Part shown: positions 8,040 through 63,693 of the stretch, in pieces
How positions within the stretch are numbered: the first letter of the stretch is position 1
How the letters are laid out: each line of letters begins with the position of its first letter
Assembly: GCF_023238205.1 (NCBI RefSeq)
Contig: NZ_CP096659.1
Location: 1,939,626 to 2,003,625, forward strand
Direction of reading: 5' to 3'
DNA length: 64,000 nt
Source of the DNA: Halorussus limi
GTDB taxonomy: Archaea > Halobacteriota > Halobacteria > Halobacteriales > Haladaptataceae
Translations under genes and position numbers: made by a program
The notes under the pieces: model-generated
Told to the model about the DNA's origin: nothing
What the model saw: the letters and a program-made list of their open reading frames with translations, nothing else
The model's database searches: none

Positions 8040-8052
8040 GCGTCGTCGCGAG

Positions 8053-8232: not shown

Positions 8233-8356
8233 AGTCGTGCCAAGGCGTCGAACGCAATAAGCCGTTTGGAGGCGCCGAACGCAGGAGTCGTTTCCCGGTG
8301 GCGGACCGGAGAACGCTGCCCGATTGCGTATCCGGATGAGAGAAACATATACAGTC

Positions 8357-8398
8357 TTCTCAAGTTCCTACTCCTGTGTTTGAGAAACAAAAATACGT
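8357..8398 (-). terminator. possible terminator after hotdog thioesterase
   Basis: Just past the minus-strand thioesterase stop there is a T-rich stretch (reading TATTTTTG on the minus strand at about 8391-8398), followed by an inverted repeat TTCTCAA/TTGAGAA (8357-8363 and 8380-8386). Archaeal termination mainly needs the T-rich tract; the hairpin may be incidental. Confidence 0.3.
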
Positions 8399-8413
8399 CC
8401 GGGTCGGCGACAG

Positions 8414-8866: not shown

Positions 8867-8867
8867 G

Positions 8868-9662
8868 TCACTGCCCCTCGAACTCCGGGTCGCGGCCGTC
8901 GAGGAAGGCCTGTACGCCCTCCTCGTGGTCGTCGGTCTCGAAGACGATGCCCTGAGCGGTCGCCTCGTCGGTCATCGCGCGCTGGACCGACTTGTCGAGG
9001 CCCTCGCCGAGCAGGCGCTTGGCGTGGCGGAGCGCCACCGTCGGACCGGTCGCGACGCGCTCGACGAACTCGTCGGCCCGTTCGTCGAACTCCTCGGCCG
9101 GGTAGACGTGGTTGACCAGTCCGAGGTCGAGCGCCCGTTCGGCGCCGACGAGTTCGCCGGTGAACACCAGTTCCTTGGCGACGTTCTCGCCGACGATTCG
9201 GGGGAGCAGGTAGGAGGTCCCGGCGTCGATGGAGAGACCGACCTGCCGGAAGCCGAACCCGACCGAGGCGTCGTCGCTGGCGAGTTGCACGTCGCAGGCG
9301 ATGGCGAGGTTCGCGCCCGCGCCGAACGCCGCTCCGTCTATCTTCGCAATCGTCGGGAGCGGGAAGGTGGCGAGGCGGGCGACGGTCTCGCTGGTAGTCC
9401 GTTCGAGTCGCCGGACCTGCTCGTCGAGAGATTCGTCGGACTCGAACCGCTCGCGCATCGCGGCGATGTCCCCGCCCGCCGAGAACGCGTCGCCCGCGCC
9501 CTCGACGGCGACGCACCGGGCGTCGCTCTCGGCGATGTCGGCCAGCGCGTCGCGCACCCCCGCCGACATCTCGGTCGAGAGCGCGTTGCGCCGGTCCGGT
9601 TCGTTCAGGGTGACCGTCGCCACGCCGTCGGCGACGTCGAGCGTGACCGACTCCCCGGTCAC
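8868..9662 (-). CDS. enoyl-CoA hydratase/isomerase family protein
   Basis: This is a 264-residue crotonase-fold protein. Motifs include LNEPDRRNALS at the start of the fold, the oxyanion-hole segment FSAGGDIAAM, and IDGAAFGAGANLAIACD. The second acidic position falls in GLSIDAGTSYLLPR, where Asp replaces the usual second Glu, so isomerase or another crotonase activity is as likely as hydration. The GTG start at 9662 overlaps the acyl-CoA synthetase stop in a GTGA junction, so it is translationally coupled. Confidence 0.9.
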   Translation of the reverse strand: MTGESVTLDVADGVATVTLNEPDRRNALSTEMSAGVRDALADIAESDARCVAVEGAGDAFSAGGDIAAMRERFESDESLDEQVRRLERTTSETVARLATFPLPTIAKIDGAAFGAGANLAIACDVQLASDDASVGFGFRQVGLSIDAGTSYLLPRIVGENVAKELVFTGELVGAERALDLGLVNHVYPAEEFDERADEFVERVATGPTVALRHAKRLLGEGLDKSVQRAMTDEATAQGIVFETDDHEEGVQAFLDGRDPEFEGQ

Positions 9663-11260: not shown

Positions 11261-11391
11261 ACAGGATAGGTATCGTATCACACCCCCTAAAGATTTGCCC
11301 CGGCCGGAACCAATTTTGAGCCAGTAACTTCGATGTGCTAACAGATGAAGGGCAACTGTCCCTCAACCCTTACGGTGGAAAAGGGCGCGGG

Positions 11392-12222
11392 CTATCCGCC
11401 GAGGTAGGCCTCGCGGATGTACTCGTCGCCACGGAGCGTCTCGGGGGAGCCTTCCCGCTCGAACCGGCCGTTCTCCAGCAGGTACACCCGGTCGGCGTGG
11501 TCCATGGCGAACGTGACGTTCTGCTCGCACAGCACCACGGTCACGCCGGCGTCCCGAATTTCCTCGATGCCGTCGCTGATGTCTTCCAGAATCACCGGCG
11601 CGAGACCGAGCGTCGGTTCGTCGAGCAACAGCAGGTCGGGGTCGCTCATCAGCGCCCGGCCGATGGCGAGCATCTGCTGTTCGCCGCCGCTCATGGTCCG
11701 GGCGTTCTGGTCGGCCCGGTCTTCGAGCGTCGGGAACAGGTCGTAGACGAACTCGCGGCGCTCGTCCACGTCGTCGCGGTGGCGGTACGCCCCGAGGTCG
11801 AGGTTGTCGGCCACGGTCATGTAGCCGAACAGGTCGCGGGTCTCGGTGCAGTGAATCAGGCCCTGCGAGACGAGGTCGCTCGCGCTCGCGTCGGCGACCT
11901 CTCGGCCGCGGTAGGTGACGCTGCCCTCGTAGGCGACGTGGCCCGACACCGCGTCGGCGAGCGTGGACTTGCCCGCGCCGTTCGGCCCGATGATGGCGAC
12001 GATTTCGCCGTCGGCGACCCGGAAGTCGAGTCCGCGGAGCGCGGCCACCTCGCCGTACGAGACCTGCAGGCCCTCGGCGCGCAGTATCGCCTCGCCGCGG
12101 TCGGGCGTCGCGTCTCCGGACGAATCGGGCACGTCGCCGGAGAACGCGGCATCGTCCCGGGACGATGCCGCGTCGTCTCGCGTCGAGGCCTCGTCGCTCC
12201 CGGAACCGGAGTCGGTACTCAT
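11392..12222 (-). CDS. livF: Liv-type ABC transporter ATPase 2 (LivF)
   Basis: The 276-residue ATPase has a 45-residue acidic, repetitive N-terminal tail (RDDAA occurs twice) before the conserved domain. Walker A GPNGAGKST is at 79-87, signature MSGGEQQMLAIGRAL and Walker B DLLLLDEPTLGLAP follow, and the LCEQN H-loop region is typical of LivF. It energises import of branched-chain amino acids or similar compounds with LivG, LivM and LivH. The start overlaps the LivG stop by four bases. The tail is encoded by an unusual 30-base palindrome at 12144-12173. Confidence 0.93.
   Translation of the reverse strand: MSTDSGSGSDEASTRDDAASSRDDAAFSGDVPDSSGDATPDRGEAILRAEGLQVSYGEVAALRGLDFRVADGEIVAIIGPNGAGKSTLADAVSGHVAYEGSVTYRGREVADASASDLVSQGLIHCTETRDLFGYMTVADNLDLGAYRHRDDVDERREFVYDLFPTLEDRADQNARTMSGGEQQMLAIGRALMSDPDLLLLDEPTLGLAPVILEDISDGIEEIRDAGVTVVLCEQNVTFAMDHADRVYLLENGRFEREGSPETLRGDEYIREAYLGG
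12144..12173. repeat. perfect 30-base palindrome inside livF
   Basis: Positions 12144-12158 (ACGCGGCATCGTCCC) are followed immediately by their exact reverse complement to 12173. It lies 50-79 bases inside livF and encodes part of the disordered N-terminal tail. As RNA it could form a long G/C-rich stem; as DNA it could be a protein site. The protein tail itself has a short RDDAA duplication, which explains only some of the symmetry. Confidence 0.9.
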
Positions 12223-13025
12223 AGCGTGTCACCTCCCAGATACGCCTCCTGCACCGCGGGGTCGCGCTTTATCTCCTCGGGTCGCCCCTCGGCTATCTTC
12301 GACCCGAACTGGATGACGACCGCCCGGTCGATGAGCGAGAGCAGGCCCCGCATGTTGTGGTCCACGACGACCAGCGTGATGCCGTCGTCGCGCAGCGACT
12401 CCAGCAGGTCAGAGATTTCGGCGACCTCCTGATTCGAGAGTCCGGCGAACGGTTCGTCCACCAGCAGCAGGTCGGGGTCGGTCGCGAGCGCGCGGCCGAG
12501 TTCCAGCCGTAACAGCCCCGCGTGGGGCAGTTCGTCCGGGAGTTGGGTGAGTCGGTCGCCCAACCCGACCCGCTCGCAGATTTCGGTCGCGCGCCGGCGC
12601 GTCTCCCCGCGGAGACCCGACAGCGACGCGATTTTGTCGGGTACCAGCGCGAGCGCGACGTTCCGGACGATGGACCGGTCCTCCAGCGGTCGGAACGACT
12701 GGAACGTCCGGGCCATCCCGCGCTTGACCATTTCGTGGGCGGGTTCGCCGGTCACGTCCTCGCCGCGGTACCAGACCGTCCCCTCGGTCGGGGGGTAGGT
12801 GCCGGTCACGCAGTTGAACGTCGTGGACTTGCCCGCGCCGTTCGGCCCGATGAACCCGAGTATCTCGCCGTCCTCGACCGCGAACGAGAGGTCGTCCACC
12901 GCGGTCAGACCCCCGAACCGCTTGGTCAGGCCGTCCAGCACGAGAACGCCGTCGTCCGGGCCGTACGATTCGGTCGCCGCGTCGGTCGTCGTCGCGTCGT
13001 CGGTCGTGGAACTGTCGGTACTCAT
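12219..13025 (-). CDS. livG: Liv-type ABC transporter ATPase 1 (LivG)
   Basis: The 268-residue ATPase starts at ATG 13025 in an ATGA overlap with LivM. Walker A GPNGAGKST (60-68), Walker B DLLLVDEPFAGLS and the H-loop VVVDHNM are intact, and the LivG-type KRGMARTFQ segment is present. The signature region reads LPHAGLLRLELGRAL, which lacks the usual SGGQ-like element; this may weaken or change its ATPase role relative to LivF. A Ser/Thr/Asp-rich tail of about 20 residues precedes the domain. It works with LivF on the LivHM permease. Confidence 0.92.
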   Translation of the reverse strand: MSTDSSTTDDATTTDAATESYGPDDGVLVLDGLTKRFGGLTAVDDLSFAVEDGEILGFIGPNGAGKSTTFNCVTGTYPPTEGTVWYRGEDVTGEPAHEMVKRGMARTFQSFRPLEDRSIVRNVALALVPDKIASLSGLRGETRRRATEICERVGLGDRLTQLPDELPHAGLLRLELGRALATDPDLLLVDEPFAGLSNQEVAEISDLLESLRDDGITLVVVDHNMRGLLSLIDRAVVIQFGSKIAEGRPEEIKRDPAVQEAYLGGDTL

Positions 13026-14278
13026 CGTCGTCCTCCGTCGGTTCGGTCGTCGGTCGATTCGTCGTCGAACGCCTCCCGGTACGCGGCCAGCGTCCGTTCG
13101 AGCGGACTGGTCCCGGTTTCGGGTTCGCCGCCGGCGTTCGTGTCGTCCCCGTCGGACGGGTCGGTCCCGCCGTCCGGGACGGCGCGCTCGCCGCCGTTCC
13201 GGCCGCCGCGCCGCAGCGCCCGCCGCCCGTTCCGAATCGTCCACCGGACGATGCCGCCCGGGAGGAAGAACAGGAGCGCGAGCGTGATCAGCGAGAACAA
13301 CAGCAGGTCGAGTTCCGACACCGGCACGTCGGCCACCGGCACGGTCCACGAGACGCCGCTGAGGTAGTCCCGGAACATGTAGTAGAACAGGCCGCCGACC
13401 GCCGGGCCGACGATGGTCCCCATGCCGCCCAGCACGCTCGCGATTATCACCTCGATGCTGACGGTGAGAACGAGCAGTTGGCTGGGTTGGGGGTTGCCGA
13501 CGGGCGTGTGGACGAACATCGCCCCGGCGAGACCGCCGACCGCGGCGCTCAGCACGAACGCGAACACCTTGAACTTCGCCGGGTCGAGGCCCGCCGCGGC
13601 GACCGCGTCCTCGTCCTCGCGGATGGCGGTGAACACCGACCCGGCGTCCGAGCGCGTGACCGCGAGCAACAACACCAGCACGAAGACGAACAGGCCGAAC
13701 GCGAGGTAGTAGTTGGCCGTGATGGCCGTCTCGAAGCTCTCGAACGCGAGCAGGTTCTCGGGACTCGACAGGCCGAGTTCGCCGCCGAAGGTGTCGCTGA
13801 ACACGATGAACAACTGGAGCAGGATGAGCGGCGCGACGAGCGTCACCAGCGAGAGGTACGGCCCCTCCAACCGGAGCGCGGGCACGCCGACGACGACGCC
13901 GGCGAGCGCCGCGAACACCATCCCGACGACTATCGCGATGGCGGGGTCGACGCCCCAGTTCAGGTTGAGCAGCGCCGACGTGTAGCCTCCGACCGCGAAG
14001 AACAGGCCGTGGCCGAAGCTTATCTGGCCGGTGTAGCCCGAGACGGCGTCCCAACTCATGGCGAACACCGCGAAGTAGAGCGCGCCCGTGAGTTTCAGGA
14101 CCATCAGGCGGTCCACGCCGAGCGCGCCCAGACCGAGTAGTCCGGCGAGGTCGTTCGTGAACGGGAGCAGGCCGAGCGCCACCAGTCCGACCAGACCCAG
14201 TCGGTGGCGGAGCGCCAGCGACGACGGGTCGAGCAGGTCGCGGTAGGACGCCGGGTCGCTGGTTGTTTCCCCGGACAT
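13022..14278 (-). CDS. livM: Liv-type ABC transporter permease (LivM)
   Basis: A 418-residue polytopic membrane protein (about ten hydrophobic segments) starting at ATG 14278, two bases after the LivH stop. LivM features include AMSWDAVSGYTGQISFGHGLFFAVGGYTSA split over two helices and LGGMGTIVGPAVGG in the coupling region. A charged, disordered cytoplasmic tail of roughly 70 residues ends the protein. With LivH it forms the membrane channel of the importer. Confidence 0.93.
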   Translation of the reverse strand: MSGETTSDPASYRDLLDPSSLALRHRLGLVGLVALGLLPFTNDLAGLLGLGALGVDRLMVLKLTGALYFAVFAMSWDAVSGYTGQISFGHGLFFAVGGYTSALLNLNWGVDPAIAIVVGMVFAALAGVVVGVPALRLEGPYLSLVTLVAPLILLQLFIVFSDTFGGELGLSSPENLLAFESFETAITANYYLAFGLFVFVLVLLLAVTRSDAGSVFTAIREDEDAVAAAGLDPAKFKVFAFVLSAAVGGLAGAMFVHTPVGNPQPSQLLVLTVSIEVIIASVLGGMGTIVGPAVGGLFYYMFRDYLSGVSWTVPVADVPVSELDLLLFSLITLALLFFLPGGIVRWTIRNGRRALRRGGRNGGERAVPDGGTDPSDGDDTNAGGEPETGTSPLERTLAAYREAFDDESTDDRTDGGRR

Positions 14279-14280
14279 GG

Positions 14281-15147
14281 TCAGGCCTCCGTGAGTTCGC
14301 GGCCGAACAGTCCCTCGGGTCTGACCAGCAGCACGACGACGAGGACGACCAGCGACGCGAGGCCGCTCAGGCTCGAATCCACGTACGACACCGTGAACAC
14401 TTCGAGGAACCCGATGAGGTACGCGCCCACGACGCTCCCGCGGATGGAACCGATGCCGCCCAGCACCACGATGGAGAACGAGAGGATGAGCGGTCCGCGT
14501 CCCATCGTGTAACTCGCGGTCCGGTACGACGCGAGGAAGACGCCGGCGACGCCGGCGAGCGCGCCCGCGAGCAACCACGTGTAGAGGTACATGCGGTCGC
14601 TCTCGATGCCGACGAGCGCGGCCCCCTTCTTGGTCATGCTTGTCGCGAGGATGGCCTTGCCGGTCTGGGTGTAGTTGACCGCCACTATCAACCCGCCGAT
14701 GAGCACCCACGAGAGGACGAACGTCAGCGCCTGATTCGTCTGGACGCTGATTCCGGCGAGCGTCAGTTGTCCCGGTAGCAGGGAGGGGACCGCCTTCGAC
14801 TGGGTCCCGACGGTGACGACGAAGAACTGCTCGATGGCGATGGAAGTCACGAGCGTCAGTATCATGACCAGTATCGGCTCGTCCTGCACCCAACGAATCA
14901 TCCCGAGGTACAGCACCGCGCTGAACACCGCGGCGACTACCAGCGCGGCGGCCGCACCGGTCCAGATGCCGAGACCGAGCGCGCTCGTGGCGTAGTACGC
15001 CGTGAACGCGCCGATAGTGAGAATCGCGCCGTGAGCGAGATTCAACACGCCGCCGACGCCGAATATCAGCGTGAATCCGATGGCGACGAGTGCGTACAGT
15101 GCGCTAATCGTGACGGCGTTGACGACCGTAGTGAGAACGTCTACCAT
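14281..15147 (-). CDS. livH: Liv-type ABC transporter permease (LivH)
   Basis: This 288-residue membrane protein has about eight hydrophobic segments. Diagnostic LivH segments are GGVLNLAHGAILTIGAF near the N-terminus, and LGGIGSIRGSVVGAYLIG with the coupling-loop glycines in the second half, ending VLLVRPEGLFG. It lies 24 bases downstream of the binding-protein gene and two bases before LivM, so all five importer genes form one operon. Confidence 0.94.
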   Translation of the reverse strand: MVDVLTTVVNAVTISALYALVAIGFTLIFGVGGVLNLAHGAILTIGAFTAYYATSALGLGIWTGAAAALVVAAVFSAVLYLGMIRWVQDEPILVMILTLVTSIAIEQFFVVTVGTQSKAVPSLLPGQLTLAGISVQTNQALTFVLSWVLIGGLIVAVNYTQTGKAILATSMTKKGAALVGIESDRMYLYTWLLAGALAGVAGVFLASYRTASYTMGRGPLILSFSIVVLGGIGSIRGSVVGAYLIGFLEVFTVSYVDSSLSGLASLVVLVVVLLVRPEGLFGRELTEA

Positions 15148-15171
15148 AATTGGGGAGTGAGTGAACGGCGG

Positions 15172-16539
15172 TCAGACCCACGGCGGGGACTGATACTTGG
15201 TCGTCGAGAGGTTGTCGGGCCAGATGACCTCCTGACTCCCGCTCCCCTCGGTCTCGCGCCACTGTAGCCAGACCGGCCACGCGTACTTCTTCCCGTACTT
15301 CACGTCGTGGGGGTACTGGTGGTCTCGGCCGTAGTACTCCACCGCCTCGGCCGTGGTGCCGGTGTACGACATGTTCTCCAGTTTGGGGATGACCTTCCCC
15401 GACTCCTTGCTCCCGGCCTGCTTGACGGCCTCGGCGTACATCTTCACCGCGTCGAAGGTGATGTAACCGGTGTAGACGGGGTACTTCCCGTTGGCCTTCT
15501 GGTAGGCGTTCGCGTACGGCACCGTCTTGCTGGTTATCTCGCTCTGGGGCGTCGCGGAGTTCTGGGTCACGGCGTACCGGCACGCGCCGTTGACCGACCC
15601 GTAGTACGACGGCAGTTGCATCGGCACGTGGATGCCGCCGAAGCCGAACGGCCGCTGCTGTTTCGCCCACTGGACCACCGCCGAGGTTCCGGTGTGGGCC
15701 ATGACGACGTACGCCGCGTCGACGCCCGCGTTCGCCACGTCGTCGTAGATTGGCGAGAAGTTCTCCGTCCCGCCGGCGTAGCGCTTGTTGACCGGCACGT
15801 CGATGCCCGCCTCGGAGAGCGACCCGTTGAGCGCCTTGGAGATGGGTTCGGTCCACGTGTAGTCCTCGGCGAGGATGGCGACCGAGTTCCACCCCATCGA
15901 CTCGAAGTTGGCCTTGGCGAAGTCGACCATGTTCTGGCCGAGGTAGTGTGAGTTGACCGGACCCGTCCGGAAGTAGTACTTGAACCGGTCGTAGTTCTCC
16001 GCGACCTTCCGGGTCGTCTCGGGCGAGGCCGCCCCGGTGTTCAGGTGGAGCGTCTGTTGTTGGGCTATCGAGGACATCAAGTTCAGCTGGACCTCGCTGG
16101 TGAACACGCCGGTCGTGAGGTCGACCTGCTCGCCCACGGTCAACTCCTGATACTTCCGCTTCCCGGTCGCGGGGTCCTCCTTGGTGTCCTTCACGACAAC
16201 GTTCACGTCCGAGCCGAGAACGCCACCGTTGTCGTTGAGCTGTTTGGCCGCGAGCTTCGCGGAGTTGGCCATCGACGCGCCGATCGGGTTGTTGCCCGGT
16301 TCGGGCGCGAGCACGCCGATCTTTATCGGCCCGTCGAGCTGCTGGTTCGCGTCTTTCGACTTGCTCCCGCCCATGCATCCGGCGAGCGACGCCGTCGCGA
16401 CGCCGGTCCCGGCGAACTGCAGGAACCGACGACGGTCCACGACCGACCCGCCCGGCGATTTCTTATCATTGTTTCGCGTATCTCTCGCTCTCTTTCCACT
16501 CGCCTTCTCACCCTCACATCCGTTACCATCGTTAACCAT
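15172..16539 (-). CDS. Liv-type substrate-binding lipoprotein
   Basis: The 455-residue protein carries a twin-arginine signal (DRRRFLQF at 35-42), a hydrophobic stretch and lipobox LAGC (52-55), so it is exported folded and lipid-anchored. The mature part is a type I periplasmic-binding fold of the LivJ/amide-binding class (IKIGVLAPEPGNNPIGASM at its start). The long hydrophilic leader before the RR makes a downstream start at one of the Val33/Val34 codons possible. Ligand could be a branched-chain amino acid, urea/amide or aromatic acid; the adjacent acyl-CoA synthetase favours an organic acid. Confidence 0.92.
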   Translation of the reverse strand: MVNDGNGCEGEKASGKRARDTRNNDKKSPGGSVVDRRRFLQFAGTGVATASLAGCMGGSKSKDANQQLDGPIKIGVLAPEPGNNPIGASMANSAKLAAKQLNDNGGVLGSDVNVVVKDTKEDPATGKRKYQELTVGEQVDLTTGVFTSEVQLNLMSSIAQQQTLHLNTGAASPETTRKVAENYDRFKYYFRTGPVNSHYLGQNMVDFAKANFESMGWNSVAILAEDYTWTEPISKALNGSLSEAGIDVPVNKRYAGGTENFSPIYDDVANAGVDAAYVVMAHTGTSAVVQWAKQQRPFGFGGIHVPMQLPSYYGSVNGACRYAVTQNSATPQSEITSKTVPYANAYQKANGKYPVYTGYITFDAVKMYAEAVKQAGSKESGKVIPKLENMSYTGTTAEAVEYYGRDHQYPHDVKYGKKYAWPVWLQWRETEGSGSQEVIWPDNLSTTKYQSPPWV

Positions 16540-16570
16540 TGTCCCGTGGTACCGTTTCCATAACTATCCA

Positions 16571-16578
16571 TATAAACA
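16571..16578 (-). promoter_or_regulatory. TATA-like box of the Liv operon
   Basis: TATAAACA on the plus strand reads TGTTTATA on the minus strand, in an A/T-rich patch 32-39 bases ahead of the binding-protein ATG. It fits an archaeal core promoter with a very short leader. Confidence 0.55.
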
Positions 16579-16702
16579 TGTGGGGTGATAACACAGTCCT
16601 CGACGCTCGCTCCGGTGACGCTCCGCGGTCGAACTCCGCGTCGGTCTCGACGCGCCGATACCGACGAGGCCGGTCCGAGGAGGTTCGTTTCAGAGGCGTG
16701 GA

Positions 16703-16709
16703 TTTTTAA
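16703..16709 (+). promoter_or_regulatory. TATA-like box of the MinD-like gene
   Basis: TTTTTAA is 25-31 bases ahead of ATG 16734. The spacing supports a leaderless transcript and argues against the earlier in-frame GTG at 16716. Confidence 0.6.
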
Positions 16710-16733
16710 CACATCGTGCGTAATTCCGGCGTA

Positions 16734-17507
16734 ATGGTCGAGGCGTTCGCGGTCGCGAGCGGGAAGGGCGGAACCGGCAAGACCACGACGACGGTGGCGC
16801 TCGGGATGGCGCTGGCCGAGGAGTACGACGTGACCGTCGTGGACGCCGACACCGGGATGGCCAACCTCCTCTTTCACACCGGCCTGACCGACGCCGACAC
16901 CACGCTCCACGACCTCCTCGTCGAGGACGCCGACGCAGACGTGTCCGAGGCGGTCTACGACCGGTTCGGCATGTCCGTCGTCCCCTGCGGAACCAGTCTC
17001 GCGGCGTTCGAGGACGCCGACCCCGACCGACTCCGCGAGGTGGTCGCCGAACTCGCCGCCGACGCCGACGTTCTCCTGCTCGACTCGCCCGCGGCGCTCG
17101 GGTCCAAGAGCGCGGTCCTGCCGGTCGTCCTCGCCGACCGCGTGGTCGTCGTCCTCCAGCCCACGATACCGGCGCTCAGCGACGGCCTGAAAGTTCAGGA
17201 GTACGCCCACTCCTACGGGACCGCCACCGCGGGCGTCCTCTTCAACAAGGTTCACGACCCCGAGGAGGCCGCGGGAGTCGCCGAGAAGACCGAGCGCTAC
17301 TTCGACGGCCCGACGCTGGCGAGCGTCCCCGACGCCGACGCCGCCCGCGCGGCCCGGCGCGACGGCGTCCCGCTGCTGGCGCACGCGCCGGACAGCGAGG
17401 CGGCCCGCGCCTACCGCGAGGCCGCCGGAAAACTGGACGTGCGCGCGGGCGAGTCGGACGCCGTGGCCGACCGCTTCCGGAGCGCCGTGATTCCGGACTC
17501 GCCATGA
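16734..17507 (+). CDS. MinD/ParA-like P-loop ATPase
   Basis: The 257-residue protein has the deviant Walker A SGKGGTGKTTTT (residues 9-20, with the signature Lys11), VVDADTGMANLL as the switch I region, and LLLDSPAALG for Walker B. No clear C-terminal amphipathic membrane-targeting helix is visible, although the last 30 residues are helical and charged. MinD paralogues in haloarchaea position chemotaxis arrays, archaella and other structures. It overlaps the next gene by four bases (ATGA), so the partner is probably functionally linked. Confidence 0.88.
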   Translation: MVEAFAVASGKGGTGKTTTTVALGMALAEEYDVTVVDADTGMANLLFHTGLTDADTTLHDLLVEDADADVSEAVYDRFGMSVVPCGTSLAAFEDADPDRLREVVAELAADADVLLLDSPAALGSKSAVLPVVLADRVVVVLQPTIPALSDGLKVQEYAHSYGTATAGVLFNKVHDPEEAAGVAEKTERYFDGPTLASVPDADAARAARRDGVPLLAHAPDSEAARAYREAAGKLDVRAGESDAVADRFRSAVIPDSP

Positions 17508-18169
17508 CTCCCGTCTGCTCTCTCGACTCGGACCTGCCGGACTTGCCCAACGGGACTCTCGTCCGCTCGCGGGTCGAGTCCGACCTGACCGCGCCGCTGG
17601 CCGCGGCGCTCGACCGCGAACTGACGGGCTACGCCGTCCTCGAACCGCAAGACGCGCTCCTGCTGGACGCCGAGGGCGCGGGCGTGGTCGCCTTCGAGGC
17701 GGGCGTGCCCCGCTTCGCGTACCACACCGGCACGGGCCGCGGCGGTCCGGCGGCGCTGGCCGACCTCGCGGTGCCGGGTCCCTACGACGTTGCGCTCCGG
17801 AGGGCCCCCGACGCGCTGGCGGCCGTCGCAGCGCTCGACCGGAGGGACCTGCGCGTGTCGCCGGGTCTGGTCGCCGACCGCCTCGCGGGCGACCCGGACC
17901 TCGCCGAGCGGACGCGGGCGGTCGCGCCCTCCGAGTGGCACGACGCCGGTGGCGCTGACGACGACGCGGGAGTCGAGACGTCGGACAAAGGGTCGGCGAG
18001 CGACAGTGGGTCGGAGAGCGACAGGGGGCCGGCGAGCGATAGCGGGTCGCCGAGCGCGGTCGAGGCGTTTCTAGACGACGAGGAGAAGATAGACGCGATT
18101 CGGGACCGCGCCCGCGAGGAGGCCAGAGAGCGGGCCGAGGAGTGGGGACTGGAAGGCGAACTGCAGTAA
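17504..18169 (+). CDS. uncharacterised acidic partner of the MinD-like ATPase
   Basis: This 221-residue protein has no recognised catalytic motif. Residues 1-140 look globular (LTGYAVLEPQDALLLD, then VVAFEAGVPRFAYH). Residues 145-185 are a low-complexity Ser/Asp/Gly linker with SDSGS-like repeats. The C-terminus is a charged helix (about 188-215, EKIDAIRDRAREEARERAEEW) suited to coiled-coil or peptide-groove binding. Translational coupling to the MinD-like gene suggests that it is the cargo adaptor or regulator of that ATPase. Confidence 0.7.
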   Translation: MTPVCSLDSDLPDLPNGTLVRSRVESDLTAPLAAALDRELTGYAVLEPQDALLLDAEGAGVVAFEAGVPRFAYHTGTGRGGPAALADLAVPGPYDVALRRAPDALAAVAALDRRDLRVSPGLVADRLAGDPDLAERTRAVAPSEWHDAGGADDDAGVETSDKGSASDSGSESDRGPASDSGSPSAVEAFLDDEEKIDAIRDRAREEARERAEEWGLEGELQ

Positions 18170-53338: not shown

Positions 53339-54172
53339 CTAGAGCTTCTTTTCGGTAATATCCGTATTCGGGATGTACGCTCGAACGAGCTCTGCTAACT
53401 CCCATGTCCGGTGGAGGTCGGCGAGGTTGTGCTGGGCTACAGGGAGGAGTTCACCGCGCTCGTAACAGTACGACGCCGACCTCGAGCTTGCAAACGGATC
53501 ATACTCCCGGTTGGCGTACCACTGATGGTCGGGAGCGGCCTCGGCCAGTACCGGCGGGACGTCGTCGCCGAAGAGGATGTCGTGGGCTGCATCGAGCGAG
53601 TTCACATCGTCGTGCGTGCCCCAGTATTTAGCGGTCGTGTTCAACCGCTTTTTCACCGGGTCCCACACATCGCAGTACATCACATTGTCGAACACCCAGT
53701 CGATCCCGTGGTCGATGCATCGGGTTCGGAGGAACGGCAAGTCGAACCCACCCTTCCACGAATCACCGTGAAACGCCGTTAGGCGGTTATACTCCCGGTC
53801 GAATCGGTCGAACACGACACGTTGGAGCACCTCCAGCAAGGCGGCTTCACCGTCGGCTGGGGTGACGGTGACCGTCGCGCCACTAATGTTCTCGAGGTGG
53901 GTTTCGTACTGGTCAACATCGATTTCTGTATCGCTGGTGTTCAGAACGAGTTCAACAGTCCCGTTCTCACTCGGAAACCAGAACCCTGAGACGGTGATTT
54001 TAGCGTTCCATGCAAACCCGGTCGTCTCCAAGTCCCACGAAATCTGCTTCCGGTCGTTGTCGCGGTCAATCATACCCGTGTCTCCCCAGTCCGAGTCGAC
54101 ATGGGAGTCCAAGAAAGGGATGGGGGTGGGATTTCCGGTTTCCGCGATCCGATGACGGCCAGTGACTACCAC
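53339..54172 (-). CDS. DEDD-type 3'-5' exonuclease-like protein
   Basis: The RNase H-fold exonuclease motifs are ISWDLETTGF (Asp and Glu of motif I), GFDLPFLRTR (motif II Asp), and AQHNLADLHRT (motif III Asp). With the start at 54172 it has 277 residues; an inner ATG at 54073 would begin MIDRDNDRKQISWD and give 244, equally plausible. It should degrade single-stranded DNA or RNA from the 3' end. Divergent from the PLD-helicase gene across 120 bases containing repeats, so the two may be co-regulated. Confidence 0.72.
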   Translation of the reverse strand: MVVTGRHRIAETGNPTPIPFLDSHVDSDWGDTGMIDRDNDRKQISWDLETTGFAWNAKITVSGFWFPSENGTVELVLNTSDTEIDVDQYETHLENISGATVTVTPADGEAALLEVLQRVVFDRFDREYNRLTAFHGDSWKGGFDLPFLRTRCIDHGIDWVFDNVMYCDVWDPVKKRLNTTAKYWGTHDDVNSLDAAHDILFGDDVPPVLAEAAPDHQWYANREYDPFASSRSASYCYERGELLPVAQHNLADLHRTWELAELVRAYIPNTDITEKKL

Positions 54173-54292: not shown

Positions 54293-57200
54293 ATGTTATC
54301 TCTACCCCCGCTCGTCGATAACACGGAGAAAAGCCTCGAAGACGTGTACAAGGATGTCCTCCCCGAAGTATCGGAGGCCCGGATCGCCACGGGCTACTTC
54401 TACCTCTCGGGATTCAACCTCTACCGCGAGGACCTCACGAACCTCGCCGACCCTGACGACCTCGGCCGGGCTCCACTCCGGATTCTGATGGGGCGACAAA
54501 CAAACCGACAGACGGCAGACGAAATCGGCGAAGGCCAGAACCTCCGTAACCAGTTCCGCGAAAACCTCAAAAATGATATTGAGGACCTGAACAACGCCCA
54601 AATCGAGCGCCTCGACCGTCTCCGCGACTTCATTGCGGAGAACAAGGTCGAAGTCCGCGTGCGCGACCCTGAAAACGGATACTTCCACGCCAAGGGAGCG
54701 TGCTTCCGCGCCGGATCAATCGACGACATCGATGAGGACGGAACCGACGAGCGCCCCTCCGTGACGGTCGCTGGCTCGTCGAACTTCTCCGAAAGCGGTC
54801 ACCGGAACAATATCGAGCTGAATTTGACGACCCGCGACCCGCACAAAGCGGAGGCATTCGAAGAGTGGTACGACAACCATTGGGCAAATGCTGAGGAATT
54901 CAGCGACGAGATCGTCCAAATCATCGAGAACAGCGGCCGGTATCAAGAGTGGAAGGATAAACAGGACGGCGAGACCGGGGACGACACTCCCGACGAAGAG
55001 TTGGGTACGTACCTCGAACCATTTGAGCTCTACAAACTCCTCGCCTACGACGAACTGGGTGGCAACGTCAGTGTTCGTGATAGCCCGCTTTACTACTTCC
55101 AGAAACTCGGGTACGAGAGCGCCAAAGAGAAACTCTCACAGTATAACGGCTGTATCATCTCAGACTCCGTCGGCCTCGGCAAGTCCTTCATCGGGGGTGA
55201 ACTCCTCCACGACTACCGCCAGCGCGGCGACCGTTGCCTGCTCATCGTCCCCGCAAACCTCACCGACCAATGGGAGAAACTCCTCGAAGAGGACACCGAC
55301 GAAGACGGGAATCTGTATTTTGGGCTCGAGGTCGACGGGATCCACCTCGATGTGATGAGCATCAGCAAGTTCCAAAACCTCGCCTATGAAGAGGTGCAGG
55401 ACCTCCGCGACGAGTTCGATGTCCTGCTCATCGATGAGGCCCACCGGTTCCGGAATCATGGCAAGTGGCGGCCAACCCCCGAAGATGAGGATGACTACAA
55501 GGGGACGCGTCGCCACGCCAACCTCCGACAGTTGCGTGGCAAGACGATGATCATGCTGACCGCGACGCCGATCAACAACAGTGCAACCGACTTGAAGAAC
55601 CTGATCAGCCTGTTCACCAGCGCCGAGGAACTCCAGAATAAGGCGAGTCTCAACTTTAACGCGTTCGACCAGTACATCGAACTCGCGCAAACACGAAAAG
55701 ACATTGCGGCAGGCAACGAGGAAGTGAGCGACGCCGAAGAGAAACGGATTACCGAACAACTCCAACGCCACTCCCGAGAAATCTCGGATATCCTGAACGA
55801 GGTGATGGTACTTCGGACGCGGAAGCACGTCAAGGAGAAGATACAGGACAGCGAGGACTTCGATATGAGTTTCAAACCGCCGGAACTCAGCAAGGAACAG
55901 TACTCGTTGCCTCCGGCGTACCAACCCATCTATCGAATGCTTCCTGACGTGATGGATGCCCTCCACCTGCCCCACATCACCATCAAGAATCCAGAAGCGG
56001 GTGGGACACTCAAGGCCCTGTACAAACTCAATCTGCTGAAACGATTGGAGTCCTCGACCTACGCCTTCGTCCAATCACTCGAAACGCTTCACGAGAGTGA
56101 GCGGAATCTCCTCGGTCTGCTTGAAGAGATGCCTGAAGACGAGGAAATCGGTGTACTCCGGTCGGCACAGAATGCCGAGAGTGCCACATCGCTAGAGGAT
56201 TTCGTCGAGGGAGAAGATGCGGTCGACGAGTTGGAAGAAACGCTCGAAGAGTTCGGGTTCGATACAACGGTCGTGCGGGCTGACGATGAGGACGGCAGTG
56301 ATGAGATTGCCGATGCGACCGTTGGTGATGTCATCACCTATATTCGAGAGGACCTCACGCTACTCGCGTACTTCCTCACCCAGTTCATCAGCGACGTTGC
56401 CCGGAATGCTGGCGACGTTAACGACCACTCGGTCGAGGTCCGGCAATGGCTCAACGACCACGATGCCGGTGTCCTCCCGGACGTCCCAGAGGAAGAAGAG
56501 CATCCCATCCTGTATCTGGGACGCGATCTAAGTGACGCTGATTCGGCAACGCGTGACTTCTACGAATCCGTATTCACGCTCCGCGAGTTCCGCGATCCCA
56601 AGATCGACCGGTTGGCTGACGTGCTCAACGAGTACGATAAGAAGGTCCTCATCTTCACCCAGTACCGCGCTACCGCAGATTACGTACACCGAGCATTACG
56701 GGATAACCCGAAGTCGCCCTTGACCGAGGCCAACAGTGCAGTCGTCAAGGGCGGAGATGATAACAAGCAGGACATCATCAAGCGGTTCGCTCCAGAGGCG
56801 TCCGATTATCAGGAGACGCTCGCCGAATCCGATGAGACCGAACTTCAGTACGTCGTCGCCACGGACACCCTGAGCGAGGGGGTGAACCTACAGGACATCC
56901 ACGTGGTCGTGAACTACGACCTCCCATGGAACCCAATGCGAATCGTCCAGCGCGTGGGTCGCATCGACCGCATCGGAAGTACGGCCGACAAGTACGTCCA
57001 CAACTTCTATCCGGACGGTGACATCGAGGCCGCGATCAAGCTCCTTGAACGATTGCAGGCGAAAATCAACGACATCGCCCTCATTGTCGGGAAGGAGAAC
57101 AACATCCTCGACCCGAACGAGGACCAGATTCTCGAAAAAGCCGGTGTCGAGACGGACAAGACGATTGGCGAGCTCGAAGTGGACGAAATCGAGGAATCAC

Positions 57201-58087
57201 TCCGTAAATCCCGTGAAGTGGACGACTACAACGAGCTGGACGACACCAGTAAGAATCCGCTCTTGCGGAACGCTGGAAGTGACGAGGACGCCGCGTTCGA
57301 ACGGTATCTGCTCAAACAAGAATTGAACGAGGAGTACGGCCTGAGTACCGATGACTTCGAGTTTGCAGAGGACTTCTTCGAGACACCACCAGAGGAGCGG
57401 GAACTGCTCTACACGAACGCCACTGGACATGAAACAGGGCCACGCCCCGGCGTGTTCGGTCTCGCTCACCTCTGGTTCGATGATGACAGTGAGGATGCCC
57501 CCTTAGGACGTGTTCGCCGGGCGTTCTACTATAAACCGTTCACTGATGACGTCAAGGAGCGGCCCGTTCGGACCCTTGGGATTACGCCGGACGTCGACGG
57601 TGAACCGATCACCGGGAACACCGAGAACGTGCTAGCGAATCGGGAGGACATCCAAGACGTCCTTGACGACCGCCTTGAAAGAATCCGAGAAGGACAGGTC
57701 AAGACTGCCTTTCAGCAAGGTGAAGACTTCTCGAAGGAACAGGAGACGATCTTGGACTGCATTGACTACCATATCAAACCGAACTATGGTGACGAGACAG
57801 CTCCGGTCGACGAGTACGACACGCTTGGTGAGTGGGCCGAGGTACTGCGTGACGAGTTGAAGAACGTCAAGTTGGAAAACACCGATGAAGACCGGATTCT
57901 CCGGGAGACGTTCCGGCACAACGACCAGTACGACTCGTTCGCTGACTGGCCACCTGCAGAGTTCCTCGAAGAACTTGATGGATTCATCGAAGAGAACATC
58001 GAAGCGTCCACAGAGTTTCAGGACACCTTGGTCGGTGAGAGTGAGGTGCAGGCACGACTCGTCTGCTGGGGTGTAATCGGGAGATAG
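54293..58087 (+). CDS. PLD-nuclease/SNF2-family helicase fusion (DrmD-like)
   Basis: The 1264-residue protein combines a PLD-type N-terminus with a two-lobe SNF2-type helicase. The PLD unit has FHAKGACF (His132, Lys134) and AGSSNFSES (160-168) with Glu175, a single HKD-like site that would need a dimer. The helicase has GLGKS (294-298), DEAH (381-384), MLTATPINNS (421-430), and motif VI QRVGRIDRIGS at about 886-896. The length, and C-terminal extension from about 930, fit DISARM DrmD or a BREX/PGL-type helicase. It should translocate on DNA, possibly cutting foreign DNA through the PLD site. The methyltransferase gene converges 42 bases downstream. Confidence 0.9.
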   Translation: MLSLPPLVDNTEKSLEDVYKDVLPEVSEARIATGYFYLSGFNLYREDLTNLADPDDLGRAPLRILMGRQTNRQTADEIGEGQNLRNQFRENLKNDIEDLNNAQIERLDRLRDFIAENKVEVRVRDPENGYFHAKGACFRAGSIDDIDEDGTDERPSVTVAGSSNFSESGHRNNIELNLTTRDPHKAEAFEEWYDNHWANAEEFSDEIVQIIENSGRYQEWKDKQDGETGDDTPDEELGTYLEPFELYKLLAYDELGGNVSVRDSPLYYFQKLGYESAKEKLSQYNGCIISDSVGLGKSFIGGELLHDYRQRGDRCLLIVPANLTDQWEKLLEEDTDEDGNLYFGLEVDGIHLDVMSISKFQNLAYEEVQDLRDEFDVLLIDEAHRFRNHGKWRPTPEDEDDYKGTRRHANLRQLRGKTMIMLTATPINNSATDLKNLISLFTSAEELQNKASLNFNAFDQYIELAQTRKDIAAGNEEVSDAEEKRITEQLQRHSREISDILNEVMVLRTRKHVKEKIQDSEDFDMSFKPPELSKEQYSLPPAYQPIYRMLPDVMDALHLPHITIKNPEAGGTLKALYKLNLLKRLESSTYAFVQSLETLHESERNLLGLLEEMPEDEEIGVLRSAQNAESATSLEDFVEGEDAVDELEETLEEFGFDTTVVRADDEDGSDEIADATVGDVITYIREDLTLLAYFLTQFISDVARNAGDVNDHSVEVRQWLNDHDAGVLPDVPEEEEHPILYLGRDLSDADSATRDFYESVFTLREFRDPKIDRLADVLNEYDKKVLIFTQYRATADYVHRALRDNPKSPLTEANSAVVKGGDDNKQDIIKRFAPEASDYQETLAESDETELQYVVATDTLSEGVNLQDIHVVVNYDLPWNPMRIVQRVGRIDRIGSTADKYVHNFYPDGDIEAAIKLLERLQAKINDIALIVGKENNILDPNEDQILEKAGVETDKTIGELEVDEIEESLRKSREVDDYNELDDTSKNPLLRNAGSDEDAAFERYLLKQELNEEYGLSTDDFEFAEDFFETPPEERELLYTNATGHETGPRPGVFGLAHLWFDDDSEDAPLGRVRRAFYYKPFTDDVKERPVRTLGITPDVDGEPITGNTENVLANREDIQDVLDDRLERIREGQVKTAFQQGEDFSKEQETILDCIDYHIKPNYGDETAPVDEYDTLGEWAEVLRDELKNVKLENTDEDRILRETFRHNDQYDSFADWPPAEFLEELDGFIEENIEASTEFQDTLVGESEVQARLVCWGVIGR

Positions 58088-58094
58088 TTGAGCC

Positions 58095-58106
58095 GGTGTC
58101 GACACC
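58095..58106. repeat. 12-base palindrome in the gap between convergent stops
   Basis: GGTGTCGACACC is perfectly symmetric and lies between the helicase stop and the methyltransferase stop, which are only 42 bases apart. No loop and no T tract, so a protein site is as likely as termination. Confidence 0.4.
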
Positions 58107-58129
58107 CGTTGAGCGTGCGCGTACGGTGC

Positions 58130-61100
58130 TTACGGGTGGGGGCCTTCCTGTTTGAGCTGGTCGTACTTTTCGAGGATGAGGTCGAAGTACTCATCCGTCA
58201 TGATGCGTGGACCAGTTACACGATAGAAGTCGTTGAGGACGAACTCGGTTTCTTCTCGGTCGAGACCGTAGGCGTGGAAGGCCGCCGCGTCGATTTCAGC
58301 CTGCAGTTCACGGCGTTTATCGTCATCGGTGACTGGTTCGATTCCGCCGAGTCGGTCACGCATCTCTGCGAATTCCTCGCCGTAGCAATTCAGTCGGGCC
58401 GCTCGGGAGGCGATGTACTCGAACCAATCATCACCGTCGGTGAGTCGAGGGAGTTGTGCTTCCTCGATTACGTGCATCGACATACTCGTATCGAGTTTGG
58501 TTCTGATGAGATAGTCGAATGGAGTACTGTTCAGGAGTCCGACCGCGACGAACAGTTCCTTGTCCGTGAAAATCCGTTTGTAGACGCTGTGAAGTGGTTC
58601 TTCGTCCAAGTCGTCTTCTTGAGGGTCGATTTCGTGAGGCCGGATGACAGGGGCCTTGTGATGGCAGACGATTCCCGGTGGGAGGACTGACGCGATGAAA
58701 CTACGTTCGTTGGTCGTGTTTGCGATTTCACGGAATGCGAGTCGGTAGCGTGAGCAGTCAAGGAGAACATCGTCGTGCGAGAGTGGGCCTCGACCATGTT
58801 CCTCTAAGAGCTCGTCAACGAACTGCACCTGCGATCCAGACCCGTCGAAGCTGTAGTAAATCTCTGATTTGAGTCGCTTTTTGTCCTTCTCTCGAATCCG
58901 CCGTTTCGCACTCTTATCTGGGTTTTTGTCTTCATCAACACTCCAGAGCGAGGGGCTACTCAGGTCCTCTCGAAGAGAGTTATTGTGCTCAAACTGCCAG
59001 AAATTCCCACCTCCGTAGACGGGGTAGTCACCTTCTTCCTCAGACTCGACGAAGCGGTCGGAGTCTCTCGAACGATTGAGTTCCTCCTTGTAGATGTCGA
59101 TGTACCACGCTTCTTCGTCTTCTTGGCTCATGCTCTGGTGCTGCGTAATCTTCTCGATTAAGCCCAGTTCGTACTCCGACTGGACTTGCGGGAAAATCCG
59201 CACGCGTGGCGAGTACTGCTTGAGTGTGTCTTGAGGGATATTAAACGCAGTTTCATCGATATTCCGTAGAACCTCGGTATCATCCTGAAGGAACTTCCCA
59301 CGAAGGTCTCCAGTGTCACCAGAGTTCTTGAACGTGAGGATGCCGAATTTCTGCTGGCCATGGATGTCGAAGATTCCGTTGTTCTCGAATGTGATTATGT
59401 CCCGGATGTCCGTTTCAGAGAGTAAGTGATCACGGAGGTCACGTGCATTCGTACCTACGAATATCTTGTTAGGGAGAATCTGAGAGATGTAGGTATCGTC
59501 ATGGCCTAGCTCAAAGATGCGCTCCAAGAAAAGGGCTGAAAGATCATGTTTACCTTGTCCCCCAATATCTGGACTTTGCATCTGGAAGAAGACACTATCC
59601 GTGACGAATTGGGAGAGTGTTTGTCGACTCTCCTGATGCTGTTCCCAGCCCTTAGCGATCTCCTCGTCCTCCAACAATTCCTCCTGTTTCGCGTCTTTTT
59701 CTGAATCAGACCGTTTTCTGAACTCTGGGTCGTGGTTCGTGAAGTATTCTTCACGATCCGACGTGAGGACCTCCCATGGAGGATTTCCAATGACAATATC
59801 GAACCCATCATCACGCCAGACTTGAGCGAATTCGAGAGGCCAATGGAGTGGTGTATAATCCTCTACGACTTCTGAGGTCTCAATGTCAATCCCGGCATCT
59901 TCGAACTCTTCAGCTAGGGCTTCATCAAACTGCGGACGATGTTCTTCGATGCGTTCTTCTGCGATTTTCCGCCATTTCGTTGCTTCAGCAGCATCGGTTG
60001 CCTCTTGGTGGTTCTCTACCGCCTCGATGATGTCCTGATACCGTTCGTAGACATTCCAATCGGTGAGGTCGGTATCACCGGACTCTTTCGGATTGAGGGC
60101 CTGTGTAAAGCCCACCAGCGAGTTCCCCTGCCGGATATTGAAGTCAATGTTCGGGAGTGGCTCTACTTCTCTGGGTTCATCCTCAATGTCGGCGACCATC
60201 GACAACCAGAGACGAAGTTTGCAGATTTCGACCGCGCCTTGATCGATGTCGACCCCATAGAGGTTGTTGAGGATGATCAACCGTTTTGCGTAGAGTGATG
60301 CACTTCCGTTCCGTGAGTTTATCGTCTCCAGTTCGTCTCGCGTTCGGCTGTCGAGTTCCCAGCCTCGCCCTTCTTTATCGAGTTGCTGGAAGAACTCGAT
60401 GCACTGCATATAGATGTCCAGCAGGACATCCTGTGCGGCGAGAAGGAAGGCCCCACTACCAACGGCAGGGTCAATAATGCGGGCTTCCTTGAGAACGTCG
60501 TGGTAAAGTGTCTCGACGTGTTTTGTTTCGACAGTGTCAGTCGGTGTCTGGGGCGTTACCATCCCTCCATCAGCAATCGCCTCTGCACCACTTCCACCGT
60601 CGGCTTGAGAGAAGCCGAAGACATCGTCGATTTCGTCGTATTCTGTGTCAATGGCCTCGTTCAATTGGTCGAGGAGGTAGGGGTGGATACTCCGCCGGGC
60701 CATGAATCCGGTGATCTCTTCGGGCGTGTAGTATGCGCCCATCTCTTTTTGATTGACTGTCTGCTCGAAGATGTGCCCGAGGATGGCCGGGGAGAGATTC
60801 TTCGGGTCGACCACGTCGAGACGTTCATCGACGTTCCAATTCCACTCGGAGAGGAAGTCCAGAATCTCCTCGAAAAGTTCGTTTGTCCGTTCCGATGAGT
60901 CTCCTAGTTTTGCGTCCGGGAACTCCTCCTCAACTGGGTTCTGGCTGAAGAGACCGCCGTTTAGGTATGGGAGGCTTTTCAAATCCTCTACCTGTTTGTC
61001 CTTTGCAAGTGCTTCGAAGAAGAGCGGTTCGTAGAAGTCCTCATAGACGTCTCCACCCTCTTCACGAATCACTCGGTCGTGGTGGCGGCGAAGGTAGTCT

Positions 61101-61717
61101 TTTTTCCGGTCGAGTAGCCGTTTCTCTTGAATGAAATACAGGAAAATAAGGCGGTCGAGAATGACCTGTACATACCGCTGTTTCGCGTCGCCTCGGTCAT
61201 CAGGAACGCCGACTACCTCTTGCACAAGGTCGGTTCGTAAATCTTCGAAGTCCTCGTAGAAGTCCTCAACGACCTGCCGGGTACTGTAGAGTTCGTTGTA
61301 AATCGCCGCTGAGGACCCGTATTCGATTGAATTGAGTTTCTGAAGGATGGTGTTCTTCTGCCCGCTATCTCGTTGGAACTGGTTTTTGGTGAACGAGAGT
61401 TTTTGGTGAGTGATTCGTCCGTGTTGCTGTCCATCGACACTCCGAACCCGTGTAATGAACGTGAATTCCTCAAAATCTTGGGTGGCAACGAGATTCGTGT
61501 GCCGATTCCGGCTATCAGGTTTGAAGTCTTGGACTGATTCGCCGGGACCAGCCTTGACGACCTCGATGAACTCATCGTCGGAGAGTTGGAGAACGAGCGT
61601 GTTCTCATCACCGAGGCCCGGTCGGGGTTTGAGATTTCGTTTCTCGAACGTGGTTGCGATGTCCTGTAGCGAGTCCCAATTGGCGATATCGTCGGCGGTA
61701 ATCTGTTGGAGGGTCAT
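58130..61717 (-). CDS. large Eco57I-like N6-adenine DNA methyltransferase (DrmMI/PglX-like)
   Basis: The 1195-residue methyltransferase has GAYYTPEEITGFMAR (327-341, motif X), motif I DPAVGSGAFLLAA (416-428), GVDIDQGAVEICKLRL (488-503), QGNSLVGF (530-537) and catalytic NPPW (645-648). A long C-terminal target-recognition part follows. The N-terminal 320 residues are helical with no clear PD-(D/E)xK site, unlike many Type IIG enzymes. It should methylate adenine in an asymmetric target, marking self DNA. It converges on the PLD-SNF2 helicase gene, forming a likely modification/restriction pair. Confidence 0.92.
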   Translation of the reverse strand: MTLQQITADDIANWDSLQDIATTFEKRNLKPRPGLGDENTLVLQLSDDEFIEVVKAGPGESVQDFKPDSRNRHTNLVATQDFEEFTFITRVRSVDGQQHGRITHQKLSFTKNQFQRDSGQKNTILQKLNSIEYGSSAAIYNELYSTRQVVEDFYEDFEDLRTDLVQEVVGVPDDRGDAKQRYVQVILDRLIFLYFIQEKRLLDRKKDYLRRHHDRVIREEGGDVYEDFYEPLFFEALAKDKQVEDLKSLPYLNGGLFSQNPVEEEFPDAKLGDSSERTNELFEEILDFLSEWNWNVDERLDVVDPKNLSPAILGHIFEQTVNQKEMGAYYTPEEITGFMARRSIHPYLLDQLNEAIDTEYDEIDDVFGFSQADGGSGAEAIADGGMVTPQTPTDTVETKHVETLYHDVLKEARIIDPAVGSGAFLLAAQDVLLDIYMQCIEFFQQLDKEGRGWELDSRTRDELETINSRNGSASLYAKRLIILNNLYGVDIDQGAVEICKLRLWLSMVADIEDEPREVEPLPNIDFNIRQGNSLVGFTQALNPKESGDTDLTDWNVYERYQDIIEAVENHQEATDAAEATKWRKIAEERIEEHRPQFDEALAEEFEDAGIDIETSEVVEDYTPLHWPLEFAQVWRDDGFDIVIGNPPWEVLTSDREEYFTNHDPEFRKRSDSEKDAKQEELLEDEEIAKGWEQHQESRQTLSQFVTDSVFFQMQSPDIGGQGKHDLSALFLERIFELGHDDTYISQILPNKIFVGTNARDLRDHLLSETDIRDIITFENNGIFDIHGQQKFGILTFKNSGDTGDLRGKFLQDDTEVLRNIDETAFNIPQDTLKQYSPRVRIFPQVQSEYELGLIEKITQHQSMSQEDEEAWYIDIYKEELNRSRDSDRFVESEEEGDYPVYGGGNFWQFEHNNSLREDLSSPSLWSVDEDKNPDKSAKRRIREKDKKRLKSEIYYSFDGSGSQVQFVDELLEEHGRGPLSHDDVLLDCSRYRLAFREIANTTNERSFIASVLPPGIVCHHKAPVIRPHEIDPQEDDLDEEPLHSVYKRIFTDKELFVAVGLLNSTPFDYLIRTKLDTSMSMHVIEEAQLPRLTDGDDWFEYIASRAARLNCYGEEFAEMRDRLGGIEPVTDDDKRRELQAEIDAAAFHAYGLDREETEFVLNDFYRVTGPRIMTDEYFDLILEKYDQLKQEGPHP

Positions 61718-62688: not shown

Positions 62689-63693
62689 TTAGGAAATTAT
62701 TCTGTATACCCGTCTCCGTCCCTCACCCTCGGCCTGCACGAGATTGTAATGGCAGAGTTTCCGGAGGTAGTTCCGAATCGTCCGCTCTGTTCGGGGATTA
62801 TCAGCCTGATCCCGGTACTCGGCGTAGAGTTCGCCCGGTTCGATCTCACCGTAGTCGTTGATAATGTCATAGACAAGACGTTGGTGCTCAGTGAGTTTCT
62901 GGACAGTTTTCTGCTGAATTTCAGCCATTGCTTTTGGCTCTGCTTCCTCGATGAGTGCGTCCGTAATCTGGTTCCGGCCTTGCTCGACCGCGTTGCGGGC
63001 GGCCGTCCGTAGGGTGCTGATTGCGACACGAGCGTCACCTGCTGCTGCATCAGCAATCCGTTCGAGTTGGTCGGTCGTGATAGCGTCTTCACGCAGGCCC
63101 CACCGGACTCGGTCTTCGAGGATTGAGACGAGTTCCGCAACCCCGTAGCGATCGAAGTGGATGCGCATCGCGGCAGTAAGACGACTTGCCACCCGGTCAT
63201 CGAGCTGGGTGAACAACTCCACTTCCCGATTGGCGATCAACACCATCGACACCTCGCGCACACGATACAGGTCGTAGAGGACGCTGGTGTCCTCATGCTG
63301 GTCGACCTCATCGAGGATGATGACGTAAGGTGGGCCGTCGTAATCGCGCAGCCGGTCGAGCAATTTGTCGGTCGGCGTGGACTCACGGTGAATATCGAGT
63401 GACTGGCCAATCCCCTCCAGCACCCGATAGAGCGTTTGAAACCGAGAGTAATTCTGCCAGCAATTGATGTAGGCGTGGTTGAAGTTGGCCACGGTGTCAT
63501 TGAGTTGGTCGACTGCAAATTTGGCGATGCACGTCTTGCCCACACCCGACGGCCCGAACAAGAGTGCGGTTTCAGCGGGTTCGCCTCGCGTAATCGGGTT
63601 GAGTGCGGCTGATAGGGTGTTGAGTTCGGCGTCGCGGTGCTGGGTTTCGGCGGGCACAAACGTCGGGTCGAGCACGCGGGCATCCGTGATCAT
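62689..63693 (-). CDS. Orc1/Cdc6-family replication initiator
   Basis: This 334-residue AAA+ protein has Walker A GPSGVGKT (47-54), Walker B VIILDEVDQ (about 123-131), sensor motifs including LIANREVE, and a C-terminal winged helix (LTEHQRLVYDIINDYGEI, RTERTIRNYLRKLC). It is shorter than chromosomal Orc1 proteins and of the type that is frequent on haloarchaeal plasmids and islands. It recognises origin repeats or acts as a regulator. An ORB-like inverted repeat lies just upstream at 63750-63779. Confidence 0.9.
   Translation of the reverse strand: MITDARVLDPTFVPAETQHRDAELNTLSAALNPITRGEPAETALLFGPSGVGKTCIAKFAVDQLNDTVANFNHAYINCWQNYSRFQTLYRVLEGIGQSLDIHRESTPTDKLLDRLRDYDGPPYVIILDEVDQHEDTSVLYDLYRVREVSMVLIANREVELFTQLDDRVASRLTAAMRIHFDRYGVAELVSILEDRVRWGLREDAITTDQLERIADAAAGDARVAISTLRTAARNAVEQGRNQITDALIEEAEPKAMAEIQQKTVQKLTEHQRLVYDIINDYGEIEPGELYAEYRDQADNPRTERTIRNYLRKLCHYNLVQAEGEGRRRVYRIIS

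Follow-up and report, generated by a model that had tools for sequence, protein, structure and literature searches.

A PLD-SNF2 helicase and adenine methyltransferase pair in Halorussus limi, a predicted restriction-modification system with apparently invertible haloarchaeal relatives

The window analysed here, 64,000 nucleotides of Halorussus limi DNA, lies on the 3.58-Mb contig of a 4.62-Mb genome in five contigs, and toward its right end two long genes face each other. One (54293..58087, plus strand) encodes a PLD-SNF2 helicase/nuclease of 1264 residues, a putative restriction subunit; the other (58130..61717, minus strand) encodes an Eco57I-like adenine methyltransferase (MTase) of 1195 residues, the modification and probable specificity subunit. 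The initial annotation had both reading frames exactly right in coordinates, sizes and convergent orientation, with 42 bp between the stop codons (58088..58129 from the ORF coordinates). Because the genes converge, they do not form one operon in the window. The GC content is about 0.54 from base 51000 on compared with 0.68 for bases 1-50000, and this drop places the pair inside a low-GC stretch that is probably acquired DNA. The same stretch contains a rhomboid gene and an Orc1/Cdc6 gene, the latter at 62689-63693 and possibly the trace of an integrated plasmid; farther right of the pair the genes, truD and thiN among them, are of an ordinary chromosomal kind. Upstream of the helicase, a 277-aa gene (53339-54172) has a weak RNase_H_2 match alone.

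Pfam recognises PLDc_2 (residues 48-197, 6.9e-10), ResIII, SNF2, and Helicase_C domains in the helicase. The catalytic H-A-K of the PLD domain (residues 132-134, 54686..54694, plus strand), part of a YFHAKG-type motif, is present in all 48 relatives, as are the Walker A sequence DSVGLGKS (residues 291-298, 55163..55186, plus strand), the DEAH box (residues 381-384, 55433..55444, plus strand), and helicase motif VI, QRVGRIDRIG (residues 886-895, 56948..56977, plus strand), which reads QRVGR(I/V)DRIG across the family. The PLD GSSN motif (residues 161-164, 54773..54784, plus strand) is also conserved, and the full set of YFHAKG, GSSN, DSVGLGKS, DEAH, TATPINN, SEGVNLQ, and QRVGRIDR is found in essentially all 48 relatives. 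The best PADLOC match is the candidate family ‘HKD+Snf2’ (PDLC01075; 276 bits, E 1.9e-82, residues 8-966), whose profile spans both the PLD and the SNF2 regions. No curated equivalog cutoff was reached (NF042964 gave 153.7 bits against a cutoff of 1100). Domain searches recognised no DNA-binding domain in the C-terminus, so the helicase may have a specificity of its own.

The MTase matches Eco57I (2.1e-28) and N6-MTase in Pfam; its best PADLOC family is type IIG (1.1e-65), and domain search found no nuclease family in it. Motif I, DPAVGSGAF (residues 416-424, 60446..60472, minus strand), and motif IV, NPPW (residues 645-648, 59774..59785, minus strand), are shared with GAYYTP by all 37 full-length relatives. 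Since the motifs are kept in the 48 helicase and 37 full-length MTase relatives, neither window gene appears to have decayed, and the PLD, SNF2, and Eco57I domains originally assigned from catalytic motifs are borne out. Mean pairwise identity among the MTases is 0.49 over residues 541-1040 (58598..60097, minus strand) compared with 0.82 over residues 1-436 and 0.66 over residues 1041-1195, and the variable region is presumed to be the target recognition domain. Searches of PDB sequences with both proteins returned just generic helicase and MTase matches, and AlphaFold models of the helicase and MTase, built on shallow alignments, had a pLDDT of 33 and 40, too low for use. In scans of viral contigs there was no MTase relative and, on the helicase side, one weak helicase-domain match.

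The helicase is present in 46 of 391 genomes of the class and in 25 of 86 genera. A gene-neighbour survey of haloarchaea showed that its adjacency to the MTase recurs: among 42 distinct haloarchaeal helicase loci, 41 have an MTase or a piece of one nearby, the remaining locus (L077) being on a 7.5-kb contig. The 42 loci comprise 17 with two cassettes (described below), 21 with one full MTase, and four that are truncated or cut by contig ends. Other families of the phylum, and some haloarchaea too, have more distant pairs of about 30% identity, whose genes share a strand and stand in either order. The initial description of a compact, complete pair therefore stands as far as a two-gene unit distinct from DISARM is concerned, given this recurrence, the distant pairs, and the lack of a DrmB-type gene nearby. 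The word complete fits less well, since a large group of loci adds a second MTase cassette and a recombinase, and one clade of about nine loci has a NucS-like nuclease gene directly downstream of the MTase, possibly a third component in that clade. The NucS-like gene encodes 343 aa at L014:14764-15795 and has homologues in L010, L012, L013, L069, and L080-L083. In Natronomonas sp. CBA1123, a CBASS-like Cap15, a CD-NTase, and a second SMODS-like gene lie between helicase and MTase (L009:13819-17590), and three diverged loci (L108, L109, L110) have a second full MTase gene, about 44% identical, near the helicase.

In the 17 two-cassette loci, two alternative C-terminal MTase cassettes are arranged around one N-terminal half, usually in the order helicase, C-terminal cassette A, shared N-terminal half, C-terminal cassette B, and recombinase. 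The N-terminal half (1.47 or 1.63 kb) is flanked by perfect inverted repeats of 25-80 bp, and the invertible unit consists of the region upstream of the gene, the start codon, and residues 1 to about 436, including motif I. Class A sites fall at codons 437-455, with repeats of 25-59 bp and a gap of 1467 bp in most loci; class B sites lie near codons 487-500, with repeats of 27-80 bp and a gap of about 1620-1640 bp. Most class A loci contain exactly two inverted copies of a 23-bp core. The two cassettes of one locus are 42-53% identical over residues 541-1040. Because motif I is on the invertible half and NPPW and the variable region are on the cassettes, the cassette that is not fused should be inactive as a methylase. 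Each of the 16 two-cassette loci with a testable distal flank has a tyrosine-recombinase gene (243 aa, PF00589) at its distal end, and no other mapped locus has one; these recombinases are 73-100% identical. The recombinase is the probable agent of the flipping. On the helicase tree the two-cassette state requires at least four changes, an approximate figure with truncated loci scored as one-cassette. At L057:9346-11900, on a plasmid of Natrinema sp. DC36, a perfect 1115-bp inverted repeat replaces the N-terminal half, a duplicated and damaged switch.

Both orientations have been observed. The N-terminal half is joined to cassette A in some genomes and to cassette B in others; across strains each cassette keeps its position, fused or not, while the fusion alternates. 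The terminal 46 kb of H. vallis plasmid unnamed3 (NZ_CP100003.1, 1-46181 and 121285-167465) are more than 99.9% identical to each other, and between the copies exactly 1467 bp are inverted, bounded by two 54-bp perfect inverted repeats. This record is labelled complete and circular though its ends repeat 46 kb. Terminal redundancy, in which the assembly of a circular plasmid ran on beyond its starting point, is the likeliest explanation, and both orientations would then have been present in the culture; a genuine duplication is conceivable, and it would likewise show the two states. A second pair comes from Halorubrum salinarum pHAR02 (L058) and G198 (L060), whose flanks are 98-99.6% identical and whose sequences match within the segment in the inverted comparison only. 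In genome G159 two contigs stop at the repeat with 79 bp in common, which is the usual sign of an unresolved inversion, and in G123 a contig breaks off at the same place at both ends, although these ends are not exactly shared. Perfect inverted repeats, a silent cassette, an adjacent recombinase, and both orientations together characterise these relatives as invertons.

The interpretation considered quite probable, mainly from domain content and comparison of loci, is that the two genes form an ATP-dependent restriction-modification system in which a nuclease-motor takes its specificity from the MTase. The MTase would methylate adenine at a site, probably an asymmetric one, that its variable C-terminal half, expected to set the DNA motif, would recognise. 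The PLD-SNF2 protein would be both motor and nuclease, brought in or licensed by the MTase where sites are unmodified, and would travel along the DNA and cleave it through the PLD domain, probably in dimeric form like SauUSI and BfiI. Restriction by the pair, presumably of viruses, would follow. One near-constant helicase serves MTase halves that are 42-53% alike, and restriction would be suicidal unless the motor-nuclease followed the specificity of the MTase; from this we infer that helicase and MTase act as a complex, much like a type ISP enzyme divided between two chains and equipped with a PLD nuclease. The prediction is that restriction specificity follows the MTase subunit.

Type ISP enzymes such as LlaGI and LlaBIII combine a Mrr-type nuclease, a motor, an adenine MTase, and a C-terminal target recognition domain in one chain. 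The window pair is proposed to use motor, adenine MTase, and C-terminal recognition domain in concert in the same way; however, it has two genes and PLD instead of Mrr, and is not type ISP. The motor and nuclease chemistry is expected to resemble that of CglI/NgoAVII and SauUSI (PMC5737866, PMC4267653, PMC7913695). CglI and NgoAVII are ATP-dependent restriction-modification systems with a PLD nuclease, an SF2 ATPase, and a separate MTase; in them a distinct R protein holds the PLD domain together with a B3 recognition domain of its own, and Z1 is part of the ATPase (PMC4267653, PMC5737866). The window pair likewise brings together a PLD nuclease and an SF2 motor with a separate MTase, but its PLD domain and motor are one chain and its specificity probably comes from the MTase. 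Pfam gave no match to B3 or Z1 in either protein, which places the pair outside the CglI/NgoAVII type.

In the main alternative to such a two-gene system, the MTase acts independently, as a type IIG-like or solitary methylase, and the PLD helicase is a separate, type IV-like defence nuclease that is its neighbour by chance. SauUSI works in the latter way: a one-chain PLD-SF2 type IV enzyme, it reads methylated DNA through a C-terminal SRA domain and lacks an MTase partner (PMC7913695). Like the window helicase, it has its PLD domain at the N-terminus, joined to an SF2 motor. Related MTases (about 45-52% identical, about 1300 aa) occur without the helicase in many haloarchaea, and genomes with the MTase outnumber those with the helicase by 105 to 46. 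However, profile searches found no SRA-like or other methyl-reading domain in the helicase, and the MTase is beside it in all but one of the 42 loci as well as in the 30%-identical pairs with other gene orders, so that independent genes seem unlikely. A degenerate or partial DISARM or BREX locus can be given almost no credence and is largely refuted. DrmD, DrmMI, and PglX do appear as secondary matches in PADLOC and NCBIfam, and as in class 1 DISARM (DrmD plus DrmMI) an SNF2 helicase adjoins a large adenine MTase. In the window, though, the PLD domain is fused to the helicase, and the scores are far below the cutoffs, 146.3 bits against 610 for the DrmD equivalog and 88 against 500 for PglX, in agreement with the initial view that this is not an ordinary DISARM locus. 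Scans of the neighbouring ORFs in the window and those of the right flank likewise revealed no DISARM partner, drmA and drmB included. PglZ is absent from the genome, whose only two MZB/DUF1998 (DrmB-type) matches lie about 0.75 Mb (C1:2.75 Mb) and 1.04 Mb (C1:3.04 Mb) from the pair; with no PglZ and no DrmB-type gene within 0.7 Mb, the pair is neither BREX nor DISARM. The two-gene form also recurs as such.

For the two-cassette loci, it could be argued that the truncated MTases are pseudogene fragments or duplications and that the orientations reflect historical rearrangement or homologous recombination, with no programmed switch. The second cassettes of L054 and L056 are indeed broken, and the N-terminal half on plasmid L057 is damaged. 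Against this, the repeats are perfect whereas the first 100 bases outward of them are 54-85% identical and, in most loci, the sequence immediately inward shows close to random identity, the class A gap is constant in most loci, the recombinase is coupled to the two-cassette state, and both states occur at near-zero divergence. When inversion was simulated, 11 of 14 locus copies also yielded an MTase that was full-length and in frame; the exceptions were the two loci with a broken second cassette and a locus whose N-terminal half has a frameshift. Chance rearrangement is thus very improbable, and pseudogene fragments are ruled out as a general explanation of the truncated MTases by the perfect repeats, the link to the recombinase, and the pairs from H. 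vallis and Halorubrum.

Bacteria classically use DNA inversion to switch restriction specificity. The well-known inversions of bacterial hsdS involve alternative recognition halves, inverted repeats, and a site-specific recombinase (PMC4948785, PMC5903667), and Lactobacillus rhamnosus BREX has a full and a partial pglX with an integrase (PMC7513527). The two-cassette loci resemble both in their alternative recognition halves, truncated silent copy, and site-specific recombinase. They differ in being archaeal, in belonging to a PLD-helicase/MTase pair, and in that the shared N-terminal half and the region upstream of the start codon invert while the recognition halves are stationary. Halovirus phiCh1 inverts its tail-fibre gene, according to the citation of Klein 2012 in PMC8371274; this is also haloarchaeal DNA inversion yielding alternative protein variants, but of viral adhesin genes rather than of a cellular or plasmid restriction-modification system.

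The loci are probably a programmed haloarchaeal specificity switch, often plasmid-borne, in which a tyrosine recombinase would flip the MTase N-terminal half between two recognition halves and so give mixed methylomes and restriction specificities among the cells of one population. Such a switch would amount to a phasevarion belonging to a cellular archaeal system; two-cassette loci occur in several haloarchaeal families, including on named public plasmids. Although specificity switching by inversion is known in bacteria, the archaeal case is apparently without an earlier report in the accessible literature: a survey of archaeal restriction-modification and a review of archaeal tyrosine recombinases mention no archaeal specificity inversion, and a survey of inversions across whole genomes, which included six archaeal datasets, reported none in these. 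This coverage of the literature is partial, and priority is not proven.

The window copy is a fixed, one-cassette form of the PLD-helicase/MTase family. Codons 437-454 (60356..60409, minus strand) are the equivalent of the class A inversion site and match the H. vallis repeat at 41 of 54 bases; as this copy is single and diverged, there is no repeat pair here. The 23-bp core is absent from the window, and with neither a second cassette nor a recombinase near the MTase, the locus is not an inverton. The same genome carries a second copy on the 150-kb contig C5 (L015, C5:76000-95999, 7152-17840). This copy is the inverting form, with a full MTase, a truncated MTase, and a tyrosine recombinase, and if the proposed switch is correct, the host of the window has both a fixed chromosomal copy and a switching one.
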